This document shows, piece after piece, positions 102 through 56,494 of a DNA stretch of 64,000 nucleotides. Origin of the DNA: Flavobacterium ginsengisoli (GTDB lineage Bacteria > Bacteroidota > Bacteroidia > Flavobacteriales > Flavobacteriaceae); contig NZ_CP121110.1 of the NCBI RefSeq assembly GCF_029625315.1, forward strand, positions 2,489,001-2,553,000. The letters run 5' to 3'. The position numbers and the translations under genes were made by a program. A model generated the notes under the pieces. That model saw only the letters and a list, made by a program, of their open reading frames with translations. It made no database searches and was not told where the DNA came from. Within the stretch, counting starts at the first letter, position 1; each line of letters starts with the position of its first letter.

Positions 102-2742
102 CTACTTAACAAAATCTACAGCTTTATTAAGCGCTTCAGCAATTCCGTCAACATTTTTACCTCCTGCTGTTGCAAAGAAAGGCTGGCCTCCGCCACCACC
201 TTGGATGTATTTCCCTAATTCGCGAACAACCTGTCCAGCATTTAAGTTTTTGGTCGCTACAATTTCTTTAGAAATATAGCATGTTAACATTGGTTTTCCT
301 TCGTTCGCTGTAGCCAAAACAATAAATAAATTGTTATACGAACCACCTAACTCGTAAGCTAAATCTTTTGCTCCTTCTGGATTTAAATCTACCTGTTTTG
401 CTAAAAATTGAACCCCGTTGATTTCTTGTAATTCTTTAGCTAAATCAGCTTTCATATTTTTAGCTTTATCTTTCAATAGAGCTTCTAATTGTTTTTTCAA
501 TTGAGCATTTTCGTCTTGCAATGCCTGAATCGCTTTTACAGGATCTGGAGCATTTTTAAGCACTTCTTTAATTTCTCCAAAAGAAATTGCTTGAGACTCA
601 AAATACTCTTTTGCAGACTTCACTTGTAATTGCTTCAATTCTTCTAATTCCTGCTGCAACAGCTCCTTCAGAAATAATTTTAAAGTGCCAGATGTCAGAT
701 GTGTTAGCAACGTGCGTTCCTCCACATAATTCAACAGAATCTCCGAATTTAATTGTACGAACTAAATCTCCATACTTCTCACCAAATAATGCAATTGCAC
801 CATCTTCAAGGGCTTGATCTTTTGGAATCGCTCTTTTTTCGATTAATGGCAAACTCTCACGAATCCTTGCATTTACAAAGTTTTCAACTTCTAATAATTC
901 TTCATCTGTAACTTTAGCAAAATGAGAAAAGTCAAAACGTAATGAAGCATTTCTTACCATCGAACCTTTTTGCTCTATATGAGTTCCTAAAATCTTACGT
1001 AAACCTTGGTGTAACAAGTGCGTAGCCGAGTGATTTGAAGAAGTTTTAGCTCTTTGAATTGCATCAACAACAGCATTAAAAGTTCCTGTAAGGTTCTCTG
1101 GCAATGATTTCGCCAAATGTACCGTTTGGTTGTTTTCTTTTTTAGTGTCAATGATATAAATAATATCTCCGTTTTGCGCTTCTAAATATCCTTTATCTCC
1201 AGTTTGTCCTCCGCTTTCTCCGTAAAATGGAGTTGCATTAAAAACCAATTGGAAAATTTCTCCATCTTTTGCACTCTCAACTCTACGATATTTTGTAATC
1301 TTAACTTGCTGCGCTAATCTATCATAACCAACAAATTCCTGAACATCATCTTCAATAATTACATGCCAATCTCCAGCTGTTACTTTAGAAGCTGCACGAG
1401 ATCTTTCTTTCTGTAATTGCAATTGTTCTTTAAATCCTTCCTCGTCCAATTTCAATCCTTTTTCTGAAAGAATCAAAGCCGTTAAATCGATTGGAAAACC
1501 ATATGTATCATACAATTCGAAAGCTTTTTTACCATCGATTGTATCACCAGTATTATTTAAAATTACAGCATCTAAAAGAATCAATCCTTGATCTAATGTT
1601 TTTAGGAAAGAGTTTTCTTCTTCACGAATTACATTCGAACAAAGTGCTTTTTGCGTTCTGATTTCTGGGAAAGAATCTCCCATTTGCTCGCTTAAAGTCT
1701 CAACCAATTTATAAATAAATGGCTCTTTAGTACCTAAGAAAGTAAATCCGTAACGAATAGCACGACGTAAAATTCTACGAATAACATATCCTGCCCCCGT
1801 GTTAGATGGCAACTGACCGTCAGCAATAGCAAAAGCTACCGCGCGAACGTGATCTGCTACTACGCGAATAGCAATATTCATTTTATTTTGTTCTTCACTA
1901 ATGCCTATTACATCATTAGTTGTATATTTTGCACCTGTAATCGTTTCGATTTCTCTAATCAAAGGCATAAAAACATCAGTATCATAGTTTGATGTTTTTC
2001 CTTGTAAAGCCATACACAAACGCTCAAATCCCATTCCGGTATCTACGTGTTGTGCTGGAAGTTTTTCTAGAGAACCATCTGCTTTACGGTTGAATTCCAT
2101 GAATACGTTATTCCAGATTTCAACAACCTGAGCGTTATCTCCATTAACTTCTCCTTTTCCTGGTTTTAGCGCTTTTTCTTCTTCAGAACGTAAATCAACA
2201 TGAATTTCAGAACAAGGTCCACAAGGCCCCTGATCTCCCATTTCCCAGAAATTATCTTTTTTATTTCCTAAAACAATTCGATCTTCATCAATTAAAGTTT
2301 TCCAGATATCCCAAGCTTCTTGGTCAAAAGGAACATTATCTTCCTTACTTCCTTCAAAAACAGAAACGTAAAGATTTTCTTTTGGAATCTTATAAACCTC
2401 AGTCAATAATTCCCAAGCCCAGTTGATCGCTTCTTTTTTGAAGTAATCACCAAAAGACCAGTTTCCTAACATTTCAAACATTGTGTGGTGGTAAGTATCG
2501 ATACCAACCTCCTCAAGGTCATTATGTTTTCCTGAAACACGAAGACATTTTTGTGTATCGGCTATTCTTGGACTTTTTGGAGTTCCGTTCCCTAAGAAAA
2601 ATTCTTTAAACTGGGCCATTCCCGAGTTATTGAACATTAAGGTTGGGTCGTCTTTAAGAACAATAGGAGCTGATGGAACAATAGTATGTCCTTTACTCTC
2701 AAAAAAATCTAAAAATTGTTTACGTACGTCTTGTGATTTCAT
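102..2742 (-). CDS. alaS: Alanine--tRNA ligase, split by a +1 frameshift in this sequence
   Basis: Charges tRNA-Ala with alanine in the cytoplasm. The N-terminus ([18 protein letters not shown]) and the class II core are typical, including [17 protein letters not shown] and [13 protein letters not shown]. The editing-domain zinc ligands are visible as HSATHLLH and CGGTH. The C-terminal part (from about residue 705) carries the coiled coil and DHHA1-like domain with [14 protein letters not shown]. The two halves are in different frames and overlap at 598-734. Removing the A at 617 (coding strand GAAGTCTGC to GAAGCTGC) rejoins them as SEAAKEYFE and gives about 879 residues, the normal family length. 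The gene is essential, so the break is most likely a sequence error. Confidence 0.95.
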
Positions 2743-3022
2743 ATTTTAATTAGAAAATGTGTCTGTTTAATGTGTCAATTTGATAACGTGCTGATTACGT
2801 TTTATTTTCAATCAATAATGCGTTAATTTTTAAAAACGAAAAGTAAAAACTTACGTTTTACAACAATAAAATTGCTAATTTGCGCATTATATAATTTAAG
2901 TAATTCTCCCCAAATTATCAAATTATTTTGTTCTTGTAAAAAAGCCCAAACAACTGAAACATTTTGTCAAATTGTTCGTCTAAGTTATTTTACAAGTCTG
3001 CAAAAATAGCGTATTTTAAAAT

Positions 3023-4000
3023 ATGGCGAAAGTAAAATATTATTACGACTCAGAAAATCTGGCTTATACGAAAATAAAAACCAGAAAAAGAATAAAAATT
3101 GGTTACGCATTACTGTTTTTATTGGCATCAGCACTATTTGGATTTTTAGTTTTTGTACTTCTAATTAATACTCCTTATTTCGAAACCCCAAAAGATCGTT
3201 TACAAGCCCGAGAAATCGAAAATTTAAAACTGCAATATGCTATTTTGAATAAAAAATTGGATGAAATTGATGAAGCCGCAGATGCATTAGAAGAACGTGA
3301 CAATAATATTTACCGCGTCTATTTTAATAAAGCTGAAATTCCAGATTCTATAAGAAAAGCTGGTTTTAAAAATTCTGATCGATATAAAATTCTTGAAGGA
3401 TATAATAATTCGCAATTGGTTTTAAATACCACCAAAAGAATTGATAAACTTTCAAAGCAATTAGCAATTCAGTCCAAATCTTTAGATGAAATTTTAAAAT
3501 TAGCTGGAGCTAAAGAAAATTTATTATTGGCAATTCCTGCCATTCAGCCAGTACGAAATGAAAATTTAAAACGTGTCGCGTCAGGTTTTGGATACCGTAT
3601 TGATCCTTTCACGAAAGTCAGAAAAATGCATAACGGAATGGATTTCACGGCCAATACAGGAGCTCCAATATACGCAACAGGAGACGGAGTCGTTGACAGA
3701 GCTGACAATACTGCTTCTGGATACGGAAATCATATTGTGATCAGGCATGGTTTTGGATATGAAAGTTTGTATGCGCATTTAAGCAAATACAACTGTCATC
3801 CTGGACAGCGAGTAAAACGCGGCGATGTTATTGGTTACGTTGGAAGCACAGGAAGATCTGAAGGCCCGCATTGTCATTACGAAGTGCATAAAGACGGAAA
3901 AGTAGTTAATCCGTTGAATTTTTATTACGGAAATATTTCAGCTGTAGAATATGTGGCAATTTCACAAATGGCAAACCAAGAAAACCAATCATTAGATTAA
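3023..4000 (+). CDS. M23 family metallopeptidase, membrane-anchored
   Basis: Putative peptidoglycan endopeptidase or an inactive activator of one. It has a short cytoplasmic N-terminus, one membrane segment (about residues 25-50, rich in L/F/V) and a coiled-coil stretch (about 60-170). A C-terminal LytM/M23 domain (about 185-300) follows. Zinc-binding residues are visible in HNGMDFTA (H and D) and GPHCHYEVH (HxH). It is divergent from alaS across a 280-base AT-rich gap. It sits just upstream of a MerR gene on the same strand, an arrangement often seen in flavobacteria. Family assignment is firm. The cleaved bond is not deducible. Confidence 0.9.
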   Translation: MAKVKYYYDSENLAYTKIKTRKRIKIGYALLFLLASALFGFLVFVLLINTPYFETPKDRLQAREIENLKLQYAILNKKLDEIDEAADALEERDNNIYRVYFNKAEIPDSIRKAGFKNSDRYKILEGYNNSQLVLNTTKRIDKLSKQLAIQSKSLDEILKLAGAKENLLLAIPAIQPVRNENLKRVASGFGYRIDPFTKVRKMHNGMDFTANTGAPIYATGDGVVDRADNTASGYGNHIVIRHGFGYESLYAHLSKYNCHPGQRVKRGDVIGYVGSTGRSEGPHCHYEVHKDGKVVNPLNFYYGNISAVEYVAISQMANQENQSLD

Positions 4001-4047
4001 TAGTACAAAAAATACTATTTTTGATGTAAAATAGAAAAAAACAAACC

Positions 4048-4380
4048 ATGCATATTGAACTTTCTAAAGACAAAAGATATTACAGTATTGGCGAAGTAGC
4101 CAAAGCTTTTAATGTCAATGCTTCTTTGATACGATTTTGGGACAGCGAATTTGACATTCTAAAACCTAAAAAAAATGCCAAAGGAAACAGAATGTTCACA
4201 CCAGAAGATATTACCAACCTTCAATTGATTTATCACTTAGTAAAAGAAAGAGGATTTACTTTAGAAGGTGCCAAAACACACTTAAAAGAAGGTCAGAAGA
4301 AAACGTTAGATAAATTCGAAATAATACGTAAATTAGAATTGATAAAAACGCAACTGAACGACATCAAAAACGAATTGTAA
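4048..4380 (+). CDS. MerR family transcriptional regulator
   Basis: A 110-residue DNA-binding protein. The N-terminal MerR helix-turn-helix is clear: YYSIGEVAKAFNVNASLIRFW, then EFDILKPKKNAKGNRMFTPED, then LIYHLVKERGFTLEGAK. There is only a short C-terminal helix and no recognisable effector domain or cysteine cluster, so the signal it senses is unknown. It lies 47 bases after the M23 peptidase and 34 bases before lemA, so it may be cotranscribed with both. Confidence 0.88.
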   Translation: MHIELSKDKRYYSIGEVAKAFNVNASLIRFWDSEFDILKPKKNAKGNRMFTPEDITNLQLIYHLVKERGFTLEGAKTHLKEGQKKTLDKFEIIRKLELIKTQLNDIKNEL

Positions 4381-4414
4381 TTAAAAATTGAAATAAACTT
4401 AAATCAAAACAAAT

Positions 4415-5000
4415 ATGAAAAAGTGGTTGATCCCTGTTGGAATTATTGTAGCTTTTATTGCTATTATCGCATTTTGGTCGATTGGAATTAAAAATACTGC
4501 TTTACAAAAAAGTCAAGCTGTTAACAAAGAGTGGGGAAATGTTCAAACCGCTTACCAAAGACGTAATGATCTTATCGGAAATTTAGTAAATACTGTTAAA
4601 GGTGCTTGCAGACTTTGAAAAAGGAACTTTAACTGCTGTAATCGAAGCTCGTGCAAAAGCTACATCTGTAACAATTGATCCAAGCAACGTAACTCCAGAA
4701 CAATTGGCACAATTTAACCAAGCGCAAAGCGGTGTATCTTCTTCTTTATCAAGATTATTAGTTTCTGTTGAGCAATATCCAACATTAAAAGCAAACGAAA
4801 ACTTCTTAAAATTACAAGACGAATTGGCTAGCACTGAAAATCAGATTTTAACAGCTAGAACTCGTTTCAATGAATCTGTACAAGATTACAACGGTTACGT
4901 TTTAAAGATTCCAAACAACTGGTTCTTGAGCGAATACAAAGAGAAACCATACTTTGAAGCTTCTACTGGAGCAGACAAACCTGTTGAAGTAAAATTCTAA
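4415..5000 (+). CDS. lemA: LemA family protein, split by a +1 frameshift
   Basis: LemA proteins have one N-terminal membrane helix and a cytosolic or periplasmic helical bundle of uncertain function. The N-terminus (KKWLIPVGIIVAFIAIIAFW) is the helix. It is followed by the family hallmark NKEWGNVQTAYQRRNDLIGNLVNTVKG. The reading frame breaks at 4606-4607, where GGTGCTTGCAGAC should read GGTGCTGCAGAC. This restores KGAADFEKGTLTAVIEARAKA and a 194-residue protein ending in VEVKF. It is followed at once by two TPM-domain genes, the usual LemA-TPM cluster. Confidence 0.93.
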
Positions 5001-5026
5001 AAAAATTAAACTCTAAAATCATTTTT

Positions 5027-5464: not shown

Positions 5465-5467
5465 ATA

Positions 5468-7053: not shown

Positions 7054-9616
7054 ATGAAAACATCTATAAAAAATATACTTACAATACTTGCAGTTTTAAC
7101 GTTCTCAATCTCATTCGCACAAAAAATAGACGGGGTTGTAACAACAGATCAAAATATTCCTTTAGAAGCAGCGAACGTGGTTATTAAAGGAACAACTTTT
7201 AGTGCAATTACAGACTCTGAAGGAAGATTTTCGATAGAATCACAAGGAAAATTACCGCTTACCCTTTTGGTTCAATACATTGGCTACAACACTGCCGAAC
7301 TTGAAATCACGGCTATTCCAGCTTCACCTCTATTGGTTACTTTACGTGAAGAAAACAAACTTGTAGAAGTTGTAGTTTCTTCAAGAAGAAGAATAGAAAA
7401 AGTACAAGATGTGCCAATTGCTGTTTCGGTAGTTACAGGAAAACAAGCGGAAGCGGCTGGAGCATTTAACGTAAACCGTATTAAAGAATTGGTTCCTTCT
7501 GTTCAGTTGTATTCTTCTAACCCAAGAAATACAGGAATCAATATTAGAAGCTTAGGTTCTCCTTTCGGATTAACAAATGACGGTATCGATCCTGGAGTTG
7601 GTTTTTACGTTGATGGTGTTTATTATGCACGTCCAGCAGCGACTACTTTAGATTTTATTGACGTAGAACAAATCGAGGTTTTACGTGGTCCACAAGGTTC
7701 TTTATTCGGAAAAAATACAACTTCTGGAGCTTTTAATATCACTTCTCGTAAACCAAGTTTTACTCCTGGTGCCGATTTTGAACTTAGCTACGGAAATTAT
7801 GCCTTTCTACAAGCTAAAGCTTCTGTTACAGGAGCATTAGGAAAAAAAGTGGCAGGTCGTTTATCTTTTTCTGGAACACAACGAGATGGTTTAATCGATA
7901 ACATTGCTACAGGAAGACCTACAAATACTTTAAACAATCAAGGTTTTAGAGGACAATTATTATGGACTCCTACTGAAAATACAAACGTTACTTTTGCAGG
8001 TGACCTTACCACACAGCGTCCTGACGGATATGCGCAGGTTGTTGCTGGTGTTGCCCCTACTAAAAGGGCCGCATACCGTCAGTTTGATGCTATTATCGCC
8101 GATTTAAATTATCAATTGCCAAGTTTAAATGCTTTTGATCGTAAAATTGATCATGATACTCCTTGGCGTTCTGGACAAGATTTAGGAGGAGTTTCATTAA
8201 ATGTCGATACAAAAATTGGAGGTGGAACACTTACTTCTACAACAGCATGGCGCTTCTGGAATTGGGATCCATCAAATGATAGAGATTTTACAGGATTACA
8301 GGTTTTAGCTAAATCTCAAAACCCAACAAGACAAACACAAATTACACAAGAGGTTCGTTATGCTGGACAAATAACTTCAAAAATAAGCGGTGTTGGTGGA
8401 GTATTCTTTATTGATCAAACTTCTCAAACAGATGGTACAGAAGAATCTGGAAATGCACAATGGAGATTCTCTCAAAGCTCAACTAGCCCACTATGGAAAA
8501 CACCAGGTCTTTTTGAAGGTTACGGTATCCATACTGATGCAAGAATTAGAGCTTCGAGCGCAGCAGTATTTGGTCAGCTTGATTGGTCAGTTACAGAAAG
8601 ATTCCACATTTTACCAGGTTTGAGATATAATTTTGATAAAAAAGACGCAAGTTATTCTCGTAAAACTTACGGAGGTCTTCAAACAACAGATCCTGCCTTA
8701 TTGGCTTTGAAAAAATCAGTTTACTCAGATCAAGCATTTGACTCAGATACAGACAATACAGATTTTTCTGGAAACTTAACGCTTACTTACAAAGCATCAG
8801 ACAAAATCAATGCTTATGCAACATTTGCTAAAAGTTACAAACCAGTTGGAGTTAACGTAGCTGGGCTTCCAACAAACTCAGCAGGACAGCCAATGACTGA
8901 ACTTGCTGTAGTTAAACCAGAAAAAGTATATCATTACGAAGTTGGAGTAAAAACATCTCCGTTTAAGAACTCTATTTTAAACTTAACACTATTTAATACT
9001 GACATCAAAGATTTCCAAACTAACGTTCAGGCAGCCGAATTAGGTGTAAACCGCGGTTATCTTGCAAATGCTGATAAAGTACGTGTAAGAGGTGCAGAAT
9101 TGGATGCGAGCTTTGTTATCAATTCACACATAACGATAAATGGTGTCTGCTACTTATACAGATGGTAAATATGTGAAATTTACAAATGCACCGCTTCCGT
9201 TAGAAGAAACAGGACTTACTGTTGATGGAGTTCAGGTAGCTTATAAAGATGTTTCTGGAACTGATTTACCAGGTGCTTCAAGATGGGCTGGTTCTCTTGG
9301 AGGTGAGCTTTCTGATCATGCAAAATTCTTTGGTAATGCTGGAAAAATTTTCTTTGTTGCTGATAGTTACGCTCGTTCTGAATTTTCTTCAAGCCCTTCG
9401 GCTTCAAAATATTTAGTAGTTCAAGGTTATGCAATCTTTAATGCTCGTTTAGGTTTCCGTGCTTCGCAAGGTTTATCTATTCAAATTTGGGGAAGAAACC
9501 TTTTCAATAAAGATTACTATGAGCAATTATTGCCTGCAAGTGGTAACACAGGACAATATGCTGGAGTTCTTGGTGATCAGAGAACTTATGGAGTTACTTT
9601 TAAGTATTCACTGTAA
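7054..9616 (+). CDS. TonB-dependent outer-membrane receptor, split by a +1 frameshift
   Basis: Imports an unknown substrate across the outer membrane using TonB energy. The signal peptide ends at FAQ (about residue 22). A carboxypeptidase-regulatory-like domain follows (about 25-95), then the plug (about 110-235: VQDVPIAVSVVTGKQ, IEVLRGPQGSLFGKNTTSGA), then a 22-strand barrel. The barrel ends with the expected aromatic-terminated strand (RTYGVTFKYSL). The frame breaks at 9146. Deleting that T turns GGTGTCTGCTAC into GGTGCTGCTAC and restores INGAATYTDGKYVKF in an 853-residue protein. The Rrf2 gene and Cys-rich leader upstream hint at a sulfur- or iron-linked substrate, which is inference. Confidence 0.92.
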
Positions 9617-9734: not shown

Positions 9735-10511
9735 TTGTATAAATTCGCAGACCTGAATTTATCGCAATTGAAAGGATCTTTTAAACTATTTTTCACTTTA
9801 CTCTTTATTACCCAACTAATTACAGGGCAAAATAAAAGAAATATCGACCAGCAAACTCTAACCTGGATTCGTTATTATAATATTTTTCCCTTGTCTGAAA
9901 AGTGGGCGCTTCATTCTGAGTTTGATAATAGAAGTTTTGTAAATCCTGTTCATGAAAACCTTTTTGTCATTAGATCTCAAGCTAGATATCGGGCCAATAA
10001 AATGATTGAAGTTGGAGCTGGATTTGCTTTTTTCAATGTAAATACCCAAAATCCGTATGTTGATCCTGATTATTCTGTTCCTGAATATAGAGGGCAACAA
10101 GATGTAACTCTGATTAATGATTTTGCTAAAATCACTTTTCACAACCGTTTTCAGTTAGAAGAACGCTTCATTCAAAAAGCAGATAAAACAGGATTACTGG
10201 ACGAATTTTCATATGCTTTCCGATTTAGATATCGTTTACAATCTATGTTTACCCTTTGGGAAAAAGAAGGCAGAAGCATAAAAGGAACTATTTCAGACGA
10301 AGTTCTTTTTAATTTCGGAAAAGACAATCGTAAAAATACATTTGATCAAAACCGTTTTTATGTTGCTTTGCGTTATCACTTCAATCCAAATCTTGGTGTA
10401 GAATTGGGGTATTTAAAAAACTTTCAAAGACGCGCAAGCGGTGTAGATTTCTATGATCGTGATATTTTCAGACTTACGGTTTATCATCGAATTAATCGAA
10501 AAAAGTTATGA
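9735..10511 (+). CDS. DUF2490 domain-containing outer-membrane protein
   Basis: Probably a small beta-barrel. A hydrophobic stretch (FKLFFTLLFITQLITGQN) acts as signal peptide. The DUF2490 pattern then follows: WIRYYNIFPLSEKWALHSEFDNRSF, RSQARYR, and FHNRFQLEERFI. The C-terminal strand is DIFRLTVYHRINRKKL. The only in-frame start near the signal sequence is a TTG at 9735. An ATG at 9725 is in another frame and stops after five codons, so the start is uncertain. It follows the TonB receptor but is separated from it by a terminator. Confidence 0.75.
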   Translation: MYKFADLNLSQLKGSFKLFFTLLFITQLITGQNKRNIDQQTLTWIRYYNIFPLSEKWALHSEFDNRSFVNPVHENLFVIRSQARYRANKMIEVGAGFAFFNVNTQNPYVDPDYSVPEYRGQQDVTLINDFAKITFHNRFQLEERFIQKADKTGLLDEFSYAFRFRYRLQSMFTLWEKEGRSIKGTISDEVLFNFGKDNRKNTFDQNRFYVALRYHFNPNLGVELGYLKNFQRRASGVDFYDRDIFRLTVYHRINRKKL

Positions 10512-16059: not shown

Positions 16060-16132
16060 CGCGGGATAGAGCAGTAGGCAGCTCGTCGGGCTCATAACCC
16101 GAAGGTCACAGGTTCGAGTCCTGTTCCCGCTA
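16060..16132 (+). tRNA. Initiator tRNA-fMet (CAT), copy 1
   Basis: A 73-nucleotide cloverleaf with anticodon CAT. Initiator features are visible: no Watson-Crick pair at 1:72 (C opposite T), and three consecutive G:C pairs in the anticodon stem (GGG CTCATAA CCC). The T arm is ACAGG TTCGAGT CCTGT. CCA is not encoded. From the -7 box to 5 bases past the tRNA (98 bp) it is identical to the copy at 46103-46175. Confidence 0.95.
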
Positions 16133-19365: not shown

Positions 19366-20464
19366 ATGCTTAAAAAACACAACCCCAAATTTTTATTTTT
19401 TACTCTTTTAACTTTATTTTTTTCTGTCTCTTCATTTTCTCAAAAAAGTGTCTACGCTGGAATCGAAATCGGACGTAGAGCTATAAAAGTTTCTGTTATT
19501 GATGTAAATAACATTAGAAAAGCCGATTATAAAATCCTTTCTTTCTGGACTGAAAGAATCCCTTTTGCTGATCATATTACTGCTAATGGCGAACTTACTG
19601 CAGAAGATATTAGTAAAACTAGCGTTACGGTTACCACGCAATTGCAAAAGATTAAAGCTGAAAACAAAATTCTTGAAGAAAACATCTTTGTTGTAGCAGC
19701 TCCTGTTTTTGCTTCTGCACGTAACTTAGACGTTTTAAAAAACAAAATTGCCCTTTTAACCGGTAAACAATTAGAAGTATTAGATGTAAACGAAGAAGCA
19801 AAAACGCTTGTTAAAGGTGCTATACCGCCTGTTGATTTTGCTAATGCTTTCCTTCTTGATATTGGTGCTCAAACTACTAAAGGCGGTTACATTGACGAAC
19901 TTAAAGACGGTAAATTAGAATTTGTTCCATTAGAACTTAGTTTTGGAACAATGACACTTACTGATGCCGTAGAAAAAACAGTGGTAAACAAAAGTCAAGT
20001 AAACGATATGTCTACCTACCAAGAAAAATCTTTTGATTATAATGTTATTCTACGTAAAAAAACAAAAGAATTATTTGATGCAAATCCTCCTTTAGCTAAA
20101 AAAGATAAATTATATTTATCTGGTGGTGCTGTTTGGGCGTTTTCAACTCTTTTTTATGACGAAACCGTTAATAAAGATCATTATGTTGCTTTAACACTTC
20201 AAGATGTTATCGATTATGATGCTATTCTTAAAAACAATTTCGGTAAGTTTACTAACCTTGCCAAAACAAACAAAGAAGTCTGCGAGAGTTTTAAGCACTT
20301 ATGACCAAAAATACTTGATTTCGGCAAACAACATTCTTGTGACTTGTCTTGAAAGTATTCCAGACTATGCAACAAAGAAAATTTACTTTGTAAAAGAAGG
20401 ACAAGTGATTTGGTTGATCTCTTACATTGCAGATCGTTCAAAAAAGATAAATACTAATTTCTAA
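19366..20464 (+). CDS. Exported Ppx/GppA-like (ASKHA fold) protein, split by a +1 frameshift
   Basis: The signal peptide ends near FSQKSVYA. The domain begins with the phosphate-1 loop YAGIEIGRRAIKVSVIDV and continues with AAPVFASARN, VLDVNEEAKTLVKGA and FLLDIGAQTTKGGYI, the blocks of exopolyphosphatase/Ppx-GppA proteins. Export of this actin-like ATPase fold is unusual, because cytoplasmic relatives hydrolyse polyphosphate or pppGpp. The frame breaks at 20279. Deleting that T (GAAGTCTGCGAG to GAAGCTGCGAG) restores NKEAARVLSTYDQKYLISANN and a 365-residue protein. A GCTTCAGA-family terminator follows. Confidence 0.75.
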
Positions 20465-27484: not shown

Positions 27485-27971
27485 TTATTCTGTCAATCCA
27501 TCAGAAGCACTCATATCTCTTAAACAAACATATTTGCCATCTCTTTTTTCAAAAAGACTCATATAATTTCCAGTATTTATAGGCGTTTTTGTCGAGTCGG
27601 TTACTTTATAATATCCTACTTCTACCACCATGTTACCATCGTGAGAAACAAAAACTTCTTTGGTTTCAAATGAGATTACATTTGTATTATTTTCTAAATC
27701 TGATTTTAAAAATTCATATCTAGCATCTTTACCAATAATTGGCGGTCTGTTTTGATAAAAAGTAATGGCGTCATCTGCATAATATCCAATCTCTTTCAAT
27801 TGACCAGCATTGTATGTTGCAAGCATATTCATTTTCTTTTGCCTGAATTTCTTTCTTGACTTGCTTTAAGTCAATCACAACATTTTCGTCCTTTTTTGTA
27901 TTGCAGGAAACCAATAAAACACAAAAACCAGAGAGAACCGCTCTTATAATTATTTTATTTTTCATAGACAT
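27485..27971 (-). CDS. SnoaL/DUF4440-like lipoprotein, split by a +1 frameshift
   Basis: A 161-residue lipoprotein after frame repair. The lipobox is VLLVSC. The rest is an NTF2-like fold of the nuclear-transport-factor-2/DUF4440 type: LKEIGYYADDAITFYQNRPP, EFLKSDLENNTNVISFETKEV, GYYKVTDSTKTPINTGNYMSLF. The break is at 27821-27822. Removing one base (coding strand TATGCTTGCAAC to TATGCTGCAAC) restores KENEYAATYNAGQLKEIG. It is 23 bases downstream of the asparaginase gene on the same strand and could belong to that operon. Its ligand is unknown. Confidence 0.75.
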
Positions 27972-29136: not shown

Positions 29137-30586
29137 TTATTTTTGGCCTGTTAAAGTTGCTGGATCAAGCAGTTTTTTAATTTGGTCTTCTGTCAGCAAT
29201 TTCTTTTCGCGTATAAGTTCTAAAATACCTTTATTGGTTGCCAATGCTTCTTTGGCCAATTCAGTTGTTTTTTCGTAACCCAAAATCGGATTTAGAGCCG
29301 TTACAACACCAACACTTCGATCCATATAATGCGCCAAAACGTCTTTGTTTACTGTAATGCCATCGATACAGTTTTTTCTAAATAATGGCATTGCTTTAAA
29401 AAACAATCCTTGAGATTCCATCATGGCAATGGCCTGAACAGGTTCAAAAGCATTTAATTGCAATAAACCAGATTGTGCGGCAATCGTTACGGTCAAGTCA
29501 TTTCCCATTACTTTAAAACACAATTGGTTCATAAGTTCTGGCATAACCGGATTTACTTTTCCTGGCATAATTGAAGATCCTGGCTGAAGTGCAGGCAAAT
29601 TGATTTCGAAAAAACCAGTACGAGGACCAGAGGCCAAAATGATCAAATCGTCGCTTATTTTTGCCAAAGCTACTGCCATGCTTTTAAGTGTAGAAGAATA
29701 CATTACAAACCCTTGTTGACTAGTCGTAGCAAGCAATAAGATCTTTACTCATTACAATTGGTTTTCCTGTAATTTTTGCCAGATGTGTCGCTACTTTTTC
29801 AGCATAACCTGGAGAAGCAGTAATTCCTGTCCCGATTGCTGTAGCTCCCATATTTTGTTCGCATAAATAAACTTCCGCTTTTTTTAAAGCACTAATTTCT
29901 GCGTCAAGCTGATTCCCGAAAGCATGAAATTCCTGACCTACAGTCATTGGTACAGCATCTTGCCCTTCGGTTCTTCCCATTTTTAGAATGTCTTTAAATT
30001 CATCGCCTTTTTTATGGAAAGCTTTAGCCAAAAGATCTGCCTCTTGAAGCAGTTTATCGTTATGAAGAAGTAATGCCACTTTTATGGCTGTTGGGTACAC
30101 ATCGTTTGTTGATTGTCCCATATTAAGATCATCATGAGGTTCAATGTATTGATATTCTCCTTTTTTATGACCGCTTAATTCCAATGCAATATTGGCTAAA
30201 ACTTCGTTTACATTCATATTCGCAGAAGTACCAGCACCGCCTTGATACAAATCGACCAAAAATTGATCATGATATTTGCCATCAATTACAGCTTGGCAAG
30301 CTTTTTCTATAGCAACAAGTCTATCTTTTTTAAGTCGGCCTACATCTGCATTGGCACGTGCTGCGACTAATTTAACCATTGCAAAAGCTTTTACATAGTC
30401 AGGATAAGATTGCGTAGTCAAGCTACTTATCTGAAAATTTTCTAATGCACGGGCTGTTTGTACTCCGTAGTACGCGTTTGCAGGAATCTGTTTTTCTCCC
30501 AGAAGATCCTTTTCAGTTCGAGTCTGCGCATTAAGAGCAATTACAGACAATCCGAACAATAGCAGATATTGTACAGTTTTACACAT
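29137..30586 (-). CDS. aspA: Aspartate ammonia-lyase with signal peptide, split by a +1 frameshift
   Basis: Converts aspartate to fumarate and ammonia. Superfamily motifs are clear: RTEKDLLGEKQIPANAYYGVQTARA, QGGAGTSANMNVNEVLANIALE, the TSNDVYP-like QSTNDVYPTA and the signature GSSIMPGKVNPVMPE. I choose the ATG at 30586 because it opens a typical signal peptide (MCKTVQYLLLFGLSVIALNAQ). The enzyme is then apparently exported, which is unusual since the well-known aspartases are cytoplasmic. The frame breaks at 29731-29732. Removing one base (coding GCTTGCTACG to GCTGCTACG) restores DLIAATTSQQGF and about 482 residues. Confidence 0.92.
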
Positions 30587-30624
30587 ATTTTTCTTTTTTA
30601 AGTGATTAATAAACACAAAGCTTT

Positions 30625-36762: not shown

Positions 36763-38020
36763 ATGGTACAGGAAAGAGTAATGGAGAAATTGGCGATTTT
36801 AGCAGATGCGACCAAATATGATGTTTCTTGCTCATCAGGACAAAGTACACGAAAAAACAAAAACAAAGGATTGGGCGACACAGGAGGCGGAATCTGCCAT
36901 GCCTTTACAGAAGACGGACGCTGTGTTTCGCTTTTAAAAATCCTACTTACCAACCATTGCATTTTTGATTGCGCCTATTGTGTGAGCCGTAAAAGCAATG
37001 ATATTAAACGAGTCGCTTTTACCGTTCAGGAGGTTGTTGATTTGACAATTGGTTTTTATCGAAGAAATTACATTGAAGGGTTATTTTTGAGTTCTGGCAT
37101 CTTCGACAATGCCGATTATACTATGGAACGTCTGGTTAGAATTGTCAAAAAACTTAGATTGGAGGAAAATTTTAATGGTTATATCCATTTAAAAGCAATT
37201 CCAGGTGCTAGCGAAGAATTACTAAAAGAAGCTGGATTATATGCCGACCGTTTGAGCGTAAATGTTGAAATGCCAACAGAACAGAGTCTTAAACTATTGG
37301 CTCCAGATAAAAATCATAAAGACGTGATTAAGCCAATGGAATATCTTAAAAACGAAATTATCGATTATCAGGAAGAGAAAAAATCCAATTACAAAACACC
37401 GCTTTTTGCTCCAGCTGGACAAAGCACGCAAATGGTAATTGGCGCAACAAAAGAAAATGACATGGAAATTCTCGGAATGGCCAATTATTTTTACGAACAA
37501 ATGAAAATGCGCCGTGTCTATTATTCTGGTTATGTGCCAATAAGCCACGATAACAGGCTTCCTGCCATTGGAACTCCAGTGCCTATGATTCGCGAAAACC
37601 GATTGTATCAAGCAGATTGGCTAATTCGCTACTACGGATTTAATGTCAATGAAATTGTTGGTTTTGACCAGCCAAATCTTGACTTAGATATTGATCCTAA
37701 ATTGGGTTGGGCATTGCGAAATCTGCATCAATTTCCAGTAGATATCAATACGGCAGATTTAGAATTAATTCAGCGTATTCCGGGCATAGGTTTTTTGAGC
37801 GCGAAAAAGATTGTTCGTCGCAAGAAATTTCAAAAAATTACAGCCAGAAGATTTAAAGAAATTAGGAATTGCTTACAGCCGATCGAAGTTTTTCTTGGCT
37901 TTTTCTTCGCCTTTCTATATGCAAAAAGACCTAACTTCTGTTCAAATAAAAAGTCAGATTTTGAATTTGCAAAACAGTAAATACAAGAATAATTTTTCGA
38001 ACCAACTTTCTTTATTTTAA
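36763..38020 (+). CDS. Putative DNA modification/repair radical SAM protein, frameshifted near its end
   Basis: A radical SAM enzyme of the TIGR03916-type family. The cluster motif is CIFDCAYC (CxxxCxxC, about residues 67-74). The flanking family sequence ATKYDVSCSSGQS and DTGGGICHAFTEDGRCVSLLKILLTNHC is present. A C-terminal helix-hairpin-helix (NTADLELIQRIPGIGFLSAKKI) is typical. The A6 run at 37832-37837 has one base too many. With five A residues the frame continues FQKLQPEDLKKLGIAYSRSKFF to a stop at 38020, about 418 residues in all. It is followed six bases later by a DUF4130 gene, its usual partner. The reaction is unknown. Confidence 0.9.
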
Positions 38021-43730: not shown

Positions 43731-43960
43731 GGTATTTGCTTTTAAAGTTATTTGCTTGATACTAAAGGTAATAAAAATGTTAGTCCAATTCACATTTTAA
43801 AACCTTAAACACTTAAATATCTGAACTTTAAACCATTTAATCCCGAAATATTTCAGATGTTCAAAAATCAAAATAAGTCCTATCTTAGCTACAGAATCAT
43901 GCGTTGATTTAAAACCAATTGCAACCTAAAAGTCAAACAAACCTAAAAGCCAAAATCTAC

Positions 43961-45494
43961 ATGACCAAAAAAAACCTGATTTTATTCGGATTTATAATTC
44001 TAAAATTCATTCTGCAATATGTCTTAATCAGTCCCGAATATGATTTGCAGCGCGACGAATATCTACATCTGGATCAAGCAAATCATCTGGCTTGGGGTTA
44101 TTTATCTGTTCCTCCGGTTACGTCTTGGTTTTCGTATACTATTCTTTTGCTTGGAAATTCGGTTTTCTGGGTAAAGTTCTTCCCTGCTCTATTTGGTGCT
44201 TTAACGCTTTTAATTGTCTGGAAAACTATTGAACTTCTCAAAGGCAATCTTTACGCTTTAATACTCGGAGCTTTGTGTGTTTTGCTTTCATGTCTACTGC
44301 GTTTAAACATGCTCTATCAGCCAAACTCGCTCGATATTTTATGTTGGACCGCACTTTATTATGCTTTAATTCAATATCTGACTTCAGAAAATACAAAATG
44401 GCTTTATTTTGGCAGCTGTAATTTTCGCTTTTGGTTTCTTGAATAAGTACAATATCGTGTTTTTATTACTCGGATTAGTTCCTGCTATTTTGCTTTCTAA
44501 ACAAAGAAAAATACTAGCAAAAAAAGAATTCTATTTTGCTCTAATTTTAGGATTGGTTTTAATTCTACCCAATTTGTATTGGCAATACAGCAATCATTTT
44601 CCAATTGTGCATCACATGAAAGAATTGGCGAAAACGCAATTGGTAAATGTAGATTTAGGTGATTTTCTAAAAGAACAAATTCTATTTTTTGTTGGCGGAT
44701 TATTTGTGATTCTAGCTGGACTTTATGCGGTTTTATTCTATCAGCCTTTCAGAAAATATCAGCTCTTTTTTGCATCATTTGTTTTCACACTTTTAATTTT
44801 TATTTACTTCAAAGCAAAAGCCTATTACGTGATTGGATTATATCCTATTTATCTTGCTTTTGGAGCCGCTTATATTTCAGAAATGATAAATAACGGATGG
44901 AAACGTTTTTTAAAACCTATTTTCATTCTGATTCCGCTATTGCTTTTTATTCCCATTTATCATGTTGCTTTTCCAAATAAAAGTCCAGAATATATGGTTG
45001 CACATTCAGAACCGTACAAAAAACTGGGACTGCTTCGTTGGGAAGACGGAAAAGATCATCATCTTCCTCAGGATTTTGCCGATATGCTAGGTTGGAAAGA
45101 ATTGGCTAGAAAAACAGATTCGCTTTATGCCTTGCTCCCAAATCAAAAAGAAACTATTGTACTTTGCGATAATTACGGACAAGCCGGAGCGATTAATTAT
45201 TATTCTAAAAAAGGAATTAAAGCTGTTTCTTTCAATGCCGATTATCTAAATTGGTTTGATCTTAGCATTAAGTATAAAAATCTCATTCGTGTTAAAGATT
45301 TTGAAGAAAACGAGAAAGAAATGAAAGAAACAAGTCCGTATTTTGAGTCTGCTGTTATTGGCGGTCAAGTCACAAATCAATACGCTAGAGGATATGGCGC
45401 TACAATTTTTGTTTTCAGGAATGCAAAAGTCGATATCAATAAGAGATTAGAGCAAGAAATCAACGAAGAGAAAAACAAGATTATAAATGATTAA
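43961..45494 (+). CDS. GT39/ArnT-like membrane glycosyltransferase, frameshifted
   Basis: A polytopic protein of the dolichyl-phosphate-mannose/ArnT superfamily, which moves lipid-linked sugars outside the inner membrane. Typical signs are DLQRDEYLHLDQANHLAWGYLSVPPVTSWF (loop with acidic residues after the first helix), about ten membrane helices and a C-terminal soluble domain. The ATG at 43961 is the best start. The frame breaks near 44405-44412 beside a GCAGC. Removing one T or G restores KWLY(L/F)AAVIFAFGFLNKYNIV, giving about 510 residues. Its stop overlaps the next gene by eight bases. Confidence 0.85.
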
Positions 45495-46102: not shown

Positions 46103-46175
46103 CGCGGGATAGAGCAGTAGGCAGCTCGTCGGGCTCATAACCCGAAGGTCACAGGTTCGAGTCCTGTTCCCGCTA
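46103..46175 (+). tRNA. Initiator tRNA-fMet (CAT), copy 2
   Basis: Identical to copy 1 over the tRNA and over 98 bases from the -7 box to CTACTAAG. It has the same initiator hallmarks: no Watson-Crick pair at 1:72 and three G:C pairs next to the anticodon loop. Its terminator is a different hairpin. Confidence 0.95.
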
Positions 46176-46180
46176 CTAAG

Positions 46181-52132: not shown

Positions 52133-52444
52133 TCATCTCAGAACTAACCTATACAATTCATCTAACAATTCCATTTCATCACTTGTAAGCATTTGCAAAG
52201 CAATTTCAAGCAAAAGCAATACATCCATTCCTGTTGAAGATGGATCATCTTTTAATGCACAAATACTTGTTTTTAATAAAGAGGCAATTATAAGATTCAA
52301 TTCGCTATACGAAGCAATTTTCAACGACAAATTAAACTGATTGTCACTTTTGGGATCTGGTTCTAGCTTTTTGAAATAATTAATTTTATTCATTAATACT
52401 ACAAAATCTTCTATTATTTCTTTTTGTTGTAATTTCATAATCAT
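52133..52444 (-). CDS. Small paralogous protein (family with 24984-25289)
   Basis: 103 residues, helical, soluble. The block ASYSEL, LLKTSICALKDD, DVLLLLEIALQM, then LTSDEMELLDELY matches the protein at 24984-25289, whose N-terminal half is unrelated in detail. The conserved C-terminal DEMELLD suggests a shared binding surface. Family name unknown to me. Confidence 0.65.
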   Translation of the reverse strand: MIMKLQQKEIIEDFVVLMNKINYFKKLEPDPKSDNQFNLSLKIASYSELNLIIASLLKTSICALKDDPSSTGMDVLLLLEIALQMLTSDEMELLDELYRLVLR

Positions 52445-52785
52445 ACTTTTTTCTATTAGACAAATTTATAAGTGTGCAAATAAAAAATAAGGAACGTATT
52501 TATCCAGTCAAATACGTCTGTTAAAAATTAGGAAGACAATTATTCCCCTATTTGAACTCTAAATTTTGACAGAATTATAGAGAGATTATTCTTTCAAAAA
52601 CAAAATTATTCAATATTTAGAAAAAATATTTTTCCTTAAAGAGTTAAACATTTTACCCACATAATCTCACAACAACTTTTTATTAATCAAACAAATACAA
52701 ATACACTAACTCGACTAACACACCAATATTGATTGCCTAAAATGCTTTTTCATCAAAAAAAAAATAAAAATTTTTCTCAAAATCC

Positions 52786-52816
52786 TTTGTACATCTCAAA
52801 AATAGTTGCACTTTTG
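52786..52816 (+). promoter_or_regulatory. Promoter of tRNA-Glu
   Basis: TTTG (52786-52789), 19 bases, then CACTTTTG (52809-52816): one mismatch from TAnnTTTG, 20 bases before the tRNA. Confidence 0.75.
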
Positions 52817-52835
52817 CACCCGCAATAACAAAGCA

Positions 52836-52907
52836 GGTCCGTTCGTCTATCGGTTAGGACGCCAGGTTTTCATCCTGGTAAGGGGGGTTCGATTCCCCCA
52901 CGGACTA
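52836..52907 (+). tRNA. tRNA-Glu (TTC)
   Basis: A 72-nucleotide cloverleaf. The acceptor pairs GGTCCGT with ACGGACT (G:T at 1:72), the anticodon loop TTTTCAT has anticodon TTC, and the T arm is GGGGG TTCGATT CCCCC. CCA is not encoded. Confidence 0.95.
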
Positions 52908-52918
52908 CTTACTAAGTC

Positions 52919-52949
52919 AAAAGCTTCAGAGAAATCTGGAGCTTTTTTT
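52919..52949 (+). terminator. Terminator of tRNA-Glu, GCTTCAGA family
   Basis: AAAAGCTTCAGAGAAATCTG plus GAGC and a T tract. The core is identical to the hairpin behind tRNA-fMet copy 1. Confidence 0.85.
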
Positions 52950-53135
52950 GTTTATATTTACTCCGTTAAATGTTTGAGTTTTTAAAAAAACTATTGAGGC
53001 GCACAAAACCTACAAATTAGCCATAAATAGAAATGCAAAAACAGCAAACACAATAACAAAGCAAACAAGAAGTTATGAATGAAGTAATTTCAGATTATAA
53101 GAAACAATCAAAAAAAAATCAACCCAAATCTTAAA

Positions 53136-54334
53136 ATGAAACACAAACTAGTAGCCCTTTTATTTGTATTCGCCTTTGCAAATATATCTGCACAAGCACC
53201 CGCCAGTAAAACCAATTATACCAACAGCAAATTACCTGCAGAAGAAGCTGTTACTAACAAGTCTCTAAAACCACTAAAAAAAATCTCTTTAGACGATACT
53301 TCTATTTTAATTTACGACTACGACGGTTCTCTTTTTTCATGGGATCTGGAAGTTGAAAGTATTGTTTGGACCGTAAAAGCTTCGGATGCTAATTCTGAAA
53401 TGTGTGCCAATAAAATAACGATACAAGACGGAGTTGTATATATTCCGTTTGTTAATGGCGAAATTTATGCTGTAGATAACGGAACGGGCGCTATTTTTTG
53501 GAAATCAAGATTAGGCAACATCAAAGATCAGATTGTTCTAAAAGATCAAACTCCAATTATTGCTAACGGAAAATTATTTATAACTGCTCAAAATCAAAAT
53601 CAGAGCAGTAATTTATACGCTTTAGACTTAAAAGATGGAAGCTTGGCTTGGAACTACAAATTAGACACGCCAAACAACGACATAGAGCCATTATTTTTCG
53701 ATAATAAGATTTTTACCCAAAGCGGAAACAATGTGTATTGTTTTGAAGCCAATACAGGCAAATTGCTAAACCAAAAAAGTTTTGACGAAACTATGACTGG
53801 AAAACCCGTCACTGATGGAGAAAGTGTTTTTATAGCTGGCGACAAAAATTGGCTCTACGCATTAAAACCAAATAGCTTGGATGTTTTATGGCAATTTAAA
53901 ATAGACGAAAACCAAAACAACGTTAAAGAACGCATAGTTTGCCACGACAAAAAACTATATTTTGCAGGGCAAGGCCCAGAAGTTTCCTCTATTTATGCTG
54001 TTGATTCTAAAACAGGAACTCAGCTTTGGAAAACAAATTTTAAGGGCGACAATGTTGAATATATAGTTAAAGAAGTTGATAACCTTTGGGGATACACGCA
54101 AAAAAAGAAACTTTTGAATTAGACTTATCAAACGGCGAAATGGCTTTTGAAGAAAAGCTAACTACACTGCCTATTTCAAATATTGAATTTCCAAATGATG
54201 ACAACTTGCTTTATTACTATTGCGACGCAGGATTAATTCAGTTCGATTTAAAAGAAAAAGACGAAAATGTATATTATATGCGCACCTCAATTACAGACAA
54301 TCCTTATAGCGCTTATTTAAAGATAATTCGATAA
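53136..54334 (+). CDS. PQQ-like beta-propeller repeat protein, frameshifted
   Basis: About 399 residues after repair. A signal peptide (KHKLVALLFVFAFANISAQA) precedes a propeller with repeated DGSLFSWDLEVESIVWTVKA, NGEIYAVDNGTGAIFWKSRLG, LYALDLKDGSLAWNYKLDTP and KNWLYALKPNSLDVLWQFKI strands, each with the A-x-D-x-x-x-G-x-x-x-W signature. One A is missing from the run at 54100-54106. Eight A residues restore YTQKKETFELDLSNGEMAFE. Extracytoplasmic scaffold or sensor. No enzyme partner is adjacent. Confidence 0.82.
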
Positions 54335-54335
54335 T

Positions 54336-54375
54336 AAAAAAAGAAGCTTTTTCAAATGAAAAAGCTTCTTTTTTT
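54336..54375. terminator. Terminator after the PQQ-repeat gene
   Basis: AAAAAAAGAAGCTTTTTCA and its complement with a two-base loop. A second hairpin (54394-54420, AAAAAGACCATT / AATGGTCTTTTT) faces the convergent gene. Confidence 0.85.
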
Positions 54376-54442
54376 ATTTGATTGCAACAAATAAAAAAGA
54401 CCATTATAAATGGTCTTTTTACTATCTTATTTTTGAGAAAAA

Positions 54443-54748
54443 TTATGCTCTAAACAAAGCATATTTATTGTAGCTATACAAAACTTTATCATAAGGAACA
54501 TAAAGCGAAACTATCTTCTCTGTTGACTCGTCAAATTGGATTCCGTTGTGTTTTCTAAACAAATAAATTTCTTTCAAACAATTAGAAAGGCTTTGGTGGA
54601 TTTCGCTTGTAAATGTTGGCAATTTTTTATCTCCTACCAAAAGATCGATCTGGTAGTTTGAACTGCTTTTTGACAAGTTGTTACCAATAATTCTAATTGT
54701 AAAAGTTGTTGGTTTTCCGTATTGTTCTCCCTGATATTGTAGCGTCAT
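54443..54748 (-). CDS. Conserved-looking small protein, 101 residues
   Basis: MTLQYQGEQYGKPTTFTIRI, then NYQIDLLVGDKKLPTFTSEI and KIVSLYVPYDKVLYSYNKYA. A mostly beta, soluble protein with no motif I recognise. It has its own terminator at 54394-54420. Confidence 0.6.
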   Translation of the reverse strand: MTLQYQGEQYGKPTTFTIRIIGNNLSKSSSNYQIDLLVGDKKLPTFTSEIHQSLSNCLKEIYLFRKHNGIQFDESTEKIVSLYVPYDKVLYSYNKYALFRA

Positions 54749-54905
54749 GATTTCTTTTTATTAAATGATTAGTACTACCGCCAATTACTTGGCTTTTGGT
54801 TCTCTAGATACTTTTATTAAAGTTATAAAAATTTAAGACAAACATAAAAAATCCTTTCTAAATTATATGTTATTTTTTCAAGAAACCTTAAAGTCTAAAA
54901 AAACG

Positions 54906-54929
54906 AAAACCGTAAGGAATTACGGTTTT
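54906..54929. terminator. Terminator of the LRR gene
   Basis: AAAACCGTAA-GGAA-TTACGGTTTT, 53 bases after the LRR gene stop in its direction of transcription. Confidence 0.7.
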
Positions 54930-54982
54930 AATAATTAACTAAATGTAAAATTCATTCATAAGCATCGATTGGTTTTGGTAAA

Positions 54983-55825
54983 CTATTGTAATTTATTTTC
55001 TTGGTTTATTTCTAATAAAAATGGATTTCCGTTCTCATCCATCATTGTCATATTCAACACATCTAATAGTGCTATTTTTTTTGAAACTTCGCCCGTAAAC
55101 TTATTGTACGAAAGATTCAATTCTTTCAGATTGGCAAGCTTTTCAATTTCTATCGGAATCGCTCCTGTAAAATCATTATCAAACAAACTGAAATTCTGCA
55201 GCGCATTCAAATTCATGATTTCATTGGTCAAACTTCCTGAAAGCTTATTATTATTCAAAAGCAACACTTTTAATCCAGAAATTTTATAAATCGAAACAGG
55301 CAGTTTTCCGTTAATTTCGTTATTAAAAACGGCTAAAATTTCGAGCTTATTCAACTTTCCAATTTCTGACGGAAGCTCTCCTGAAATAGCATTCATAAAA
55401 AGCTCCAAGTCTTTCAATTTGGCTAATTGACAAATTGAAGCCGGAATTACGCCAGACAATTTATTATTAGCAATATTGAGCAATTCTAATTCTTTCAAAT
55501 TAAAAACCGAAGGAGACAAACTCCCTTCAATTTTATTCTTCTCCAGATTTAGCGATTCTAAATTTACAAGATCGTAAAAAGCTTCGGGCAATTCGCCTTG
55601 CAGATTATTATCTGCTAAATTAAGTGCCACTACTTTTCCATTTTGAGTTTTAACCCCATACCAAGTAGAAACTGGCAGATTTAAATCCCACTTTGTTTTC
55701 CACTGCAAACCATTTGTTGCGTGATATAATTTTATAAGCGCTTCTTTTTCTTTATCCGAAATGGTATCTGCCAAAACACTTAGCGAAAAAGCAAACACTA
55801 AAGAAAATGTAATTAAAATTTTCAT
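54983..55825 (-). CDS. Secreted leucine-rich-repeat protein
   Basis: 280 residues. A signal peptide (KILITFSLVFAFSLSVLADT) and an N-cap (ALIKLYHATNGLQWKTKWDL) are followed by about seven 23-24-residue repeats of plant type, LxxLxLxxNxLxGxLPxxI: NLADNNLQGELPEAFYDL, NIANNKLSGVIPASICQL, NLSYNKFTGEVSKKIALL. These form a solenoid for protein binding. No C-terminal sorting domain is obvious, so it may remain periplasmic or be exported otherwise. Confidence 0.85.
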   Translation of the reverse strand: MKILITFSLVFAFSLSVLADTISDKEKEALIKLYHATNGLQWKTKWDLNLPVSTWYGVKTQNGKVVALNLADNNLQGELPEAFYDLVNLESLNLEKNKIEGSLSPSVFNLKELELLNIANNKLSGVIPASICQLAKLKDLELFMNAISGELPSEIGKLNKLEILAVFNNEINGKLPVSIYKISGLKVLLLNNNKLSGSLTNEIMNLNALQNFSLFDNDFTGAIPIEIEKLANLKELNLSYNKFTGEVSKKIALLDVLNMTMMDENGNPFLLEINQENKLQ

Positions 55826-56004
55826 AACAGATTTGGGATTTGTTACAATCGTAAAATTATATAATTCATAGCTATAATACGCTAAATATCGACAAACTGT
55901 TAATAAAAAAATAATTAGTAAGATTTAAACTACTTTATAATATTTCATAAAATCTGCGTTTATTTTAACTACATTTGACTAACTAATTCTAAAAACCTCA
56001 TATT

Positions 56005-56494
56005 ATGCAAATTAACTTCGTTGCCTTATTTATTGCGAGCAATTGTAACACTAGTAACTGGTTTTATCTGGTACAGCCCAAAAGTATTCGGAACAATCTG
56101 GATGAAGGAAAACAATCTTACCCAAGAGGAATTAAGAAAAGGAAATATGCTTAAAATCTTCGGATTGACTTACCTCTTTTCTTTAATGATTACAATGACT
56201 TTAATGTCGCTAACCATCCATCAATCTGGCGCAATCGGAATGGTTGGCGGACCACCATTAATGGATAGTGCAAAACCTTCATTTGCAGCTTTTATGGCAG
56301 ATTACGGAATGGCTTACAGAACTTTCAAACATGGCGCTCTTCATGGTTTTATGTCTGGATTGTTTTTTGCGTTTCCGCTAATTGGAATTAATGGTTTATT
56401 CGAAAGAAAATCTTGGAAATATATTTTCATTCATGCTGGATACTGGATGCTTACCCTAACTCTTATGGGAGGAATTATCTGCGGATTTGCTTAA
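56005..56494 (+). CDS. DUF1761 membrane protein, split by a +1 frameshift
   Basis: About 162 residues and four membrane helices. MQINFVALFIA starts at the ATG 56005. The rest (IVTLVTGFIWYSPKVFGTIW, FGLTYLFSLMITMTLMSLTI, FKHGALHGFMSGLFFAFPLI, GYWMLTLTLMGGIICGFA) is one frame over. Removing the G at 56037 (GCGAGC to GCAGC) restores FIAAIVTLVTG. DUF1761 proteins are integral membrane proteins of unknown function. Confidence 0.85.

Follow-up and report, generated by a model that had tools for sequence, protein, structure and literature searches.

The window analysed here is a stretch of 64,000 nucleotides from Flavobacterium ginsengisoli (positions 2,489,001-2,553,000 of contig C1, NZ_CP121110.1) in which eight genes, alaS among them, are each broken by one extra base at the motif GCWGC or in contact with it, and the closest described case is that of Listeria ST87. 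In the available part of PMC10687267, nanopore errors of Listeria ST87 are placed at GCAGC/GCTGC and ascribed to a GCWGC methyltransferase of the M.BatI type, the errors being mismatches with indels not the source of low quality. M.BatI is described in the accessible text of PMC8936443 as a GCDGC-specific orphan C5 enzyme whose mark falls on the first C of GCWGC in both strands, and GCWGC-type C5 enzymes also appear in the list of PMC10734518, as far as the excerpt extends. In the available portion of PMC11389150, methylation is reported to cause nanopore typing errors that are specific to a strain and linked to a motif. The site of Bsp6I is GCNGC according to excerpts of PMC9799307 and PMC9465063, where the latter predicts m5C for its Bsp6I-type enzyme and also reports m4C at GCNGC, while PMC3039593 names Bsp6I and gives no site. 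For NgoFVII, the site GCSGC is given in excerpts of PMC9930230 and PMC10734518. On GCNGC in Flavobacterium the literature search yielded one paper, which deals with N6-methyladenine-dependent endonucleases.

The studied genome (G000; one contig of 5,414,540 bases) resembles the Listeria ST87 case in having the same five-base motif at which the long-read consensus was wrong there, and differs in having an insertion at approximately one in eight GCWGC sites and GTCGC as the top misreading, with broken genes as the result. We consider it highly probable that methylation-driven consensus errors, in an assembly made from long reads and probably from nanopore reads only, account for the breaks; it is very probable that the genes are in fact unbroken and that the single-base insertions are assembly errors. 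In this explanation, the organism would methylate a cytosine in GCWGC, and a base-caller and polisher blind to the mark would misread about half of the GCWGC sites, mostly by substitution (GCTGC as GTCGC, GCCGC or GTTGC), whereas about one site in eight would gain the one-base insertion that breaks genes. The probable modifier would be an orphan C5 methyltransferase with a Vsr partner encoded at 4,007,468-4,008,451 of the contig. The first-pass annotation had proposed that the consensus is systematically wrong at a modified GCWGC site, and this was borne out in substance: the differences from a same-species genome, their motif and their one-sidedness were observed, as were the methyltransferase genes, and from these we infer the platform, the methylation and the responsible enzyme. 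The breaks do not count as a biological feature. Seen as an artefact, they add a new example to a known type, marked by its large share of insertions and by a link that leads usefully from the error motif to the methyltransferase.

Probable errors at GCWGC and CCGG in the assembly

The comparison strain was Flavobacterium sp. IB48, the closest named relative among the 80 loci listed as related to the window and another strain of the same species, whose contig names of the SPAdes 'NODE' form suggest a short-read origin. The 80 loci, IB48 included, were used for comparison per site. In a first set, 600 kb of the studied genome was compared with the matching IB48 stretches, producing 458 kb of alignment with a mean identity of 98.3% and a gap of approximately 111 kb (2,535,182-2,646,000) without a partner in the IB48 stretches compared. 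A separate region of 200 kb, fetched later, produced 184 kb of alignment as a replicate. Megablast blocks of at least 1,000 columns and at least 93% identity between paired regions were kept and sites closer than about 20 bases to a block end were left out. Pooled, the alignments covered 642,152 IB48 bases, approximately 12% of the genome and not a random sample of it.

The pooled alignments showed errors concentrated at one short motif and in one assembly only. A total of 849 GCWGC sites of IB48 were read in the studied genome as 429 same, 302 mismatched, 113 inserted and 5 deleted, while in the reverse direction the 465 GCWGC sites of the studied genome were read in IB48 as 429 same, 34 mismatched, 2 deleted and none inserted; the motif was thus changed at 420 of 849 sites forward versus 36 of 465 in reverse (Fisher p 1.5e-59). 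In the first set, 567 IB48 sites gave 278 same, 214 mismatched, 70 inserted and 5 deleted, and 307 reverse sites gave 278 same, 27 mismatched, 2 deleted and none inserted. Among five-mers with at least 50 sites, GCWGC ranked first of 508 for both mismatch (0.377) and insertion (0.1235) in the first set and first of 509 for both in the replicate, where 282 sites carried 41 insertions and 88 mismatches versus 0 and 7 in 158 reverse sites. This enrichment had been set as a test beforehand and was found in both separate sets, so that the proposal was not refuted by it. GCSGC was hit far less, with 214 same, 39 mismatched, 8 inserted and 3 deleted in 264 pooled sites. Single-base insertions in the first set numbered 190, of which 75 touched GCWGC, 4 GCSGC and 22 were in runs of at least four, and of the 170 single deletions 71 were in such runs, 4 touched GCNGC and 95 did neither.

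CCGG was the second error motif. Single-base deletions at CCGG in the studied genome were found at 12 of 218 sites against 0 of 230 in reverse in the first set, the first of 136 four-mers, and this replicated with 9 of 99 against 0 of 86, again the top four-mer (pooled, 21 of 317 against 0 of 316). In addition, A/T runs of at least five showed 66 single deletions versus 23 insertions in the studied genome. Shortened A/T runs are a typical nanopore pattern. In the window, homopolymer runs shorter than in IB48 by one base (two at 4998) were found at 4998, 13131, 13513, 16957, 20467, 28087, 28730 and 32311, and these are ordinary long-read undercalls.

From the 420 altered sites minus a background of about 66, and from the 113 insertions, in the non-random 12% aligned, the assembly is extrapolated to hold approximately 3,000 wrong GCWGC sites, of which about 950 would carry a false insertion. 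If so, much of what looks like a pseudogene, a shifted start or an amino-acid difference in this genome would not be real. The GCWGC errors may be the cause of its completeness of 95.52 compared to 100 in the IB48 draft, the latter value being that of a same-species entry (G089) whose contig coordinates equal those of IB48 (G001) and which is evidently one and the same genome.

Methyltransferases of the genome

Two PF00145 C5 methyltransferases, both without inner stops, were found in the studied genome (METHYLTRANSFERASES). The first has an RE_HpaII nuclease (314.5 bits) just behind it, and given this HpaII-type neighbour its expected site is CCGG, the specificity of HpaII. The second has 328 residues and faces a Vsr mismatch endonuclease gene; it matched PF00145 with 285.4 bits and TIGR00675 with 303.9 bits and therefore has a C5 catalytic domain. 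No Bsp6I-type nuclease was found in the 3.9 kb locus around it (L082), which has the Vsr gene instead, and the methyltransferase/Vsr pair was kept in all four loci compared (the studied genome, IB48 and two other Flavobacterium genomes). IB48 also has both methyltransferases, at 98-99% identity, and so probably carries the same mark, the difference lying in how the two strains were sequenced. The strongest argument that modification is the cause is the pairing of two error motifs, GCWGC and CCGG, with two C5 methyltransferases. That the error motifs correspond one to one to these enzymes, and that an assembly set against a same-species assembly reports a methylome without raw reads, is a suggestion that may hold or fail about equally well. 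Such errors suggest a route back to the methyltransferase behind them and, if this is general, methyltransferase specificities could be drawn from archived assemblies, and bulk flagging of false gene breaks would become feasible. As a separate observation, the Vsr-linked enzyme had matches at E ≤ 1e-120 in 42 of 398 genomes of the genus, of which G110 has two.

The Vsr-linked enzyme is 51-54% identical to three plasmid methyltransferases that adjoin Bsp6I-family nucleases, and the identity includes the target-recognition stretch YVRENK..PTLTANMGTGGHNVP, so that the target-recognition region is shared. The list of plasmid relatives has 15 with at least 48% identity; neighbours were checked for 10 of these and for one relative at 39%. 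Five of the ten adjoined a Bsp6I-family nuclease (so annotated, with a Pfam check in one case), four a protein with an NgoFVII C-terminal domain and one neither, and the relative at 39% adjoined an unnamed type II nuclease. On a tree of 21 rows the Vsr-linked enzyme grouped with the Bsp6I/NgoFVII-linked rows, apart from the HpaII-linked enzyme (100/99). It differs from a Bsp6I system in having Vsr and no such nuclease in its locus and in a tree position nearer to the NgoFVII-linked relatives. Set against M.BatI by description, it is likewise an orphan C5 enzyme, whereas M.BatI, in the accessible text of PMC8936443, falls 20-30% short of the usual size and has an unusual motif I. Membership of the Vsr-linked enzyme in the GC-N-GC class is well supported by its sequence relatives, and marking of GCWGC is its predicted specificity. 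The earlier prediction of a GCWGC-type methyltransferase elsewhere in the genome is therefore matched as far as two C5 enzymes, one of GC-N-GC kin, and kinship does not carry it to the W.

Several points weigh against methylation-driven error by the Vsr-linked enzyme. The case is built on assemblies, and as IB48 is a different strain, a minority of the changes are real, for which the reverse counts give the background. In the first set, 89 of the 190 single-base insertions fit none of the motif classes. On the tree, the nearest nuclease-linked relatives of the enzyme are two NgoFVII-linked (GCSGC) rows, and the two plasmid relatives with a Vsr neighbour are both NgoFVII-linked, yet few GCSGC errors were found. 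Finally, the ratio of GTCGC to GCTGC was 1.02 in the studied genome and 0.33 in IB48, and it was raised nowhere else, with 0.24-0.43 in two pooled sets of named relatives and in seven other one- or two-contig Flavobacterium genomes of platforms not known (G208, G110, G367, G347, G058, G011 and G137), six of which carry a relative of the Vsr-linked enzyme at 80-95% identity. The normal ratio of these six would weaken the case if any of them came from unpolished nanopore data, and otherwise counts neither for nor against it. The genome G208 (4.0 Mb), included because its one contig reaches a completeness of only 70, has a normal ratio and no GCWGC sign, so another cause of its low completeness is likely.

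It is possible, though unlikely, that the GCWGC modification is real and made by another enzyme, whether the HpaII-linked methyltransferase or a member of a family beyond those searched. The specificity of the Vsr-linked enzyme comes from kinship only and its nearest nuclease-linked relatives are of the GCSGC type, which leaves room for this. The HpaII-linked enzyme, however, is accounted for by CCGG, and PF01555 and PF02086 had no match in the genome, other modification families not being searched. Adenine methyltransferases were tried as a cause and rejected, as the PF02384/PF07669 matches were PrmC-like, TrmN-like (under the NCBIfam cut-off) and AprA-like.

A weakness of base-calling or polishing at bare GCWGC, with no DNA modification, was judged quite improbable. 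The modification here is inferred rather than measured, and the error rate depends on the flanks as expected from a k-mer-based caller: 22-23% of the sites were altered where C stood at -2 or G at +2, and 61-64% where T stood at -2 or A at +2 (scored on 510 of the 567 first-set sites, 57 with rarer outcomes being excluded). Against a bare-sequence weakness stand the seven one- or two-contig genomes without the sign, though of platforms not known, and the agreement of the two error motifs with the pair of C5 enzymes predicted by gene content. Amplification that strips modifications also improved the affected Listeria genomes, according to the available part of PMC10687267.

Form of the probable errors and their coding effect

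The misreadings in the pooled set, given on the GCTGC strand, were GTCGC (147), GCCGC (55), GCTTGC (38), GTTGC (35), GCTCGC (30) and GTCTGC (25). The commonest is the double change GTCGC, and an adjacent double change as top outcome is unlike the usual mutational process. The insertions fell at several positions of the motif and with different bases. In the first set, codons changed at GCWGC were 133 nonsynonymous to 95 synonymous, compared to 775 nonsynonymous, 4717 synonymous and 6 stops elsewhere, so that changes at GCWGC disregard coding constraint and codon position. Frameshifting insertions in coding sequence numbered 68 at GCWGC (515 sites in 385 kb) versus 36 elsewhere, and frameshifting deletions 6 at GCWGC and 64 elsewhere. 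Overall, 86 of 477 IB48 open reading frames (ORFs; at least 120 residues, in the alignments) had at least one GCWGC insertion in the studied genome.

Ala-Ala is the frame of 617 of 777 coding GCWGC sites, and its presence at the breaks is a by-product of this. Insertions were found at 88 of the 617 Ala-Ala sites, at 5 of 61 and 11 of 99 sites in the other frames and at 9 of 72 sites outside the chosen long ORFs. Ala-Ala was rejected as meaningful in itself, being the usual frame of the motif with insertions in other frames too.

Real mutation in this strain, by gene decay, 5-methylcytosine deamination or slippage at GCWGC, is highly implausible, even though methylation could make a site especially prone to mutation and the extra bases do stand in the deposited sequence. 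Deamination would turn C to T, yet GTTGC makes up only 35 of the 420 altered sites against 147 for GTCGC, and real changes would not be expected to ignore codon position or to hit so many long ORFs. In addition, alaS is essential, and IB48 with the same two methyltransferases lacks these changes. Hypermutation of 5-methylcytosine at GCWGC was also looked for where the studied genome is intact and not seen (GTTGC in 1 of 27 differences, first set). Programmed +1 frameshifting or bypassing at GCWGC with a real extra base, which would suit breaks that are all +1 and share a short motif, is very improbable, given that insertions also occur outside the chosen long ORFs and vary in position and base, that the compared relatives lack the extra base and that the majority of altered sites carry a substitution, for which recoding would serve no purpose.

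Altered sites and broken genes in the window

Positions 1-46,181 of the window form one block with IB48, and positions 54,200-61,500 were compared with locus L156. Comparison of the eight reported breaks showed one extra base versus IB48 at all eight, each being present in the deposited sequence, and none of the breaks recurred in this independent sequence as those of real pseudogenes would. The extra base is inside a GCWGC of IB48 at 617, 4606, 9146, 20279 and 29731 and inside GCAGC of L156 at 56037. The other two, 27821 and 44417, touch GCWGC or a one-base variant; IB48 reads GTAGC at 27821, where GCAGC is therefore only the probable site. The altered sites are listed in Table 1.

Table 1. 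Features and altered GCWGC sites of the window, in window positions
Feature	Position	Strand	Remark
alaS N-terminal piece (tRNA-synt_2c, tRNA_SAD)	598..2742	-	domain matches; broken at 617
alaS C-terminal piece (DHHA1)	102..734	-	domain match
GCWGC +1 base, alaS break	613..618	-	vs IB48 and relatives
GCWGC +1 base, intergenic	2996..3001	+	vs IB48; not reported earlier
GCWGC +1 base, lemA split (4415-4618 / 4602-5000)	4604..4609	+	vs IB48
GCWGC +1 base, TonB-dependent receptor split (7054-9168 / 9140-9616)	9145..9150	+	vs IB48
GCWGC +1 base, near start of DUF2490 ORF 9735-10511	9747..9752	+	not reported earlier
GCWGC +1 base, exported ASKHA-like protein (19366-20304; continues ORF 20204-20464)	20278..20283	+	vs IB48
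+1 base at probable GCWGC, SnoaL-like gene (piece 27485-27832)	27819..27824	-	vs IB48
GCWGC +1 base, aspA-like lyase split (29137-29736 / 29720-30616)	29729..29734	-	vs IB48
GCWGC altered, net +1 base, radical-SAM/HHH ORF 36763-37980	37816..37821	+	not reported earlier
GCAGC then +1 base, PMT_2/GT39-like gene split (43919-44446 / 44409-45494)	44412..44417	+	vs IB48
GCWGC +1 base, near start of DUF1761 gene (ORF 56021-56494)	56035..56040	+	vs L156
Substituted GCWGC sites 1-12 of 24 (first bases)	253, 8068, 9356, 18009, 21746, 22318, 23532, 24226, 27021, 29650, 29787, 30312		vs IB48
Substituted GCWGC sites 13-24 of 24 (first bases)	30363, 33269, 33486, 35197, 35318, 35982, 36808, 37012, 39940, 41752, 42834, 45586		vs IB48
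Four more altered GCWGC sites, right part of window	56683, 59621, 60252, 60465		vs L156

Several details of the first-pass annotation changed with the comparison. The break of the GT39-like gene, put at about 44410, is at 44417 directly after GCAGC, and with this placement the coding strand has T as the extra base in seven cases instead of six. Restoration of Ala-Ala, claimed for every break, was seen in IB48 at six of eight and is likely at one more (27821), and is false at 44417, where IB48 encodes Gly-Ser. The eight insertions were also not the full picture, as those at 2997, 9751 and 37819 and the mostly-substitution nature of the altered sites had been missed. The sites at 1308, 1391 and 15203 do read GCTGC and are intact as stated. 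In window positions 1-46,181, the 63 GCWGC sites of IB48 were read as 31 intact, 8 with an insertion and 24 substituted, and a few of the 24 may be true strain differences. The eight GCWGC sites compared with L156 were 3 intact, 1 with an insertion and 4 otherwise altered.

The two alaS pieces match successive AlaS domains, and unbroken copies are present in IB48 and relatives. The extra base was absent from every spanning relative at the five insertion sites compared, three of which are breaks reported earlier. At 617, none of 48 spanning relatives had it (15 further matches did not span the site). Of the relatives compared at the five sites, not all have GCWGC at the place, 37 of the 48 at 617 being an example. 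At 2997 the window was longer than all 80 relatives by one to three bases, by two or three in 21 of 80, and at 9146 longer than all 75 spanning relatives, by one base with one exception. The extra base was found in 0 of 80 relatives at 4606 and 0 of 14 spanning relatives at 9751. For the gene labels, AlaS was matched, and with LemA, the TonB receptor, the aspA-like Lyase_1 and PMT_2 the two pieces fell into one family, with the family scan of the SnoaL-like and DUF1761 genes covering one piece each. The ASKHA label is based on a Ppx-GppA match of 23.9 bits, under the 27-bit cut-off.

Two tRNA genes with equal Rfam scores were also found in the window, at 46103-46175 and 16060-16132. After the tRNA at 46103-46175, the match to IB48 contig C33 stops, though C33 runs approximately 99 kb further, and from there the window matches a different IB48 contig, C11. 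This switch is a rearrangement or a misjoin at the tRNA in one of the two assemblies.

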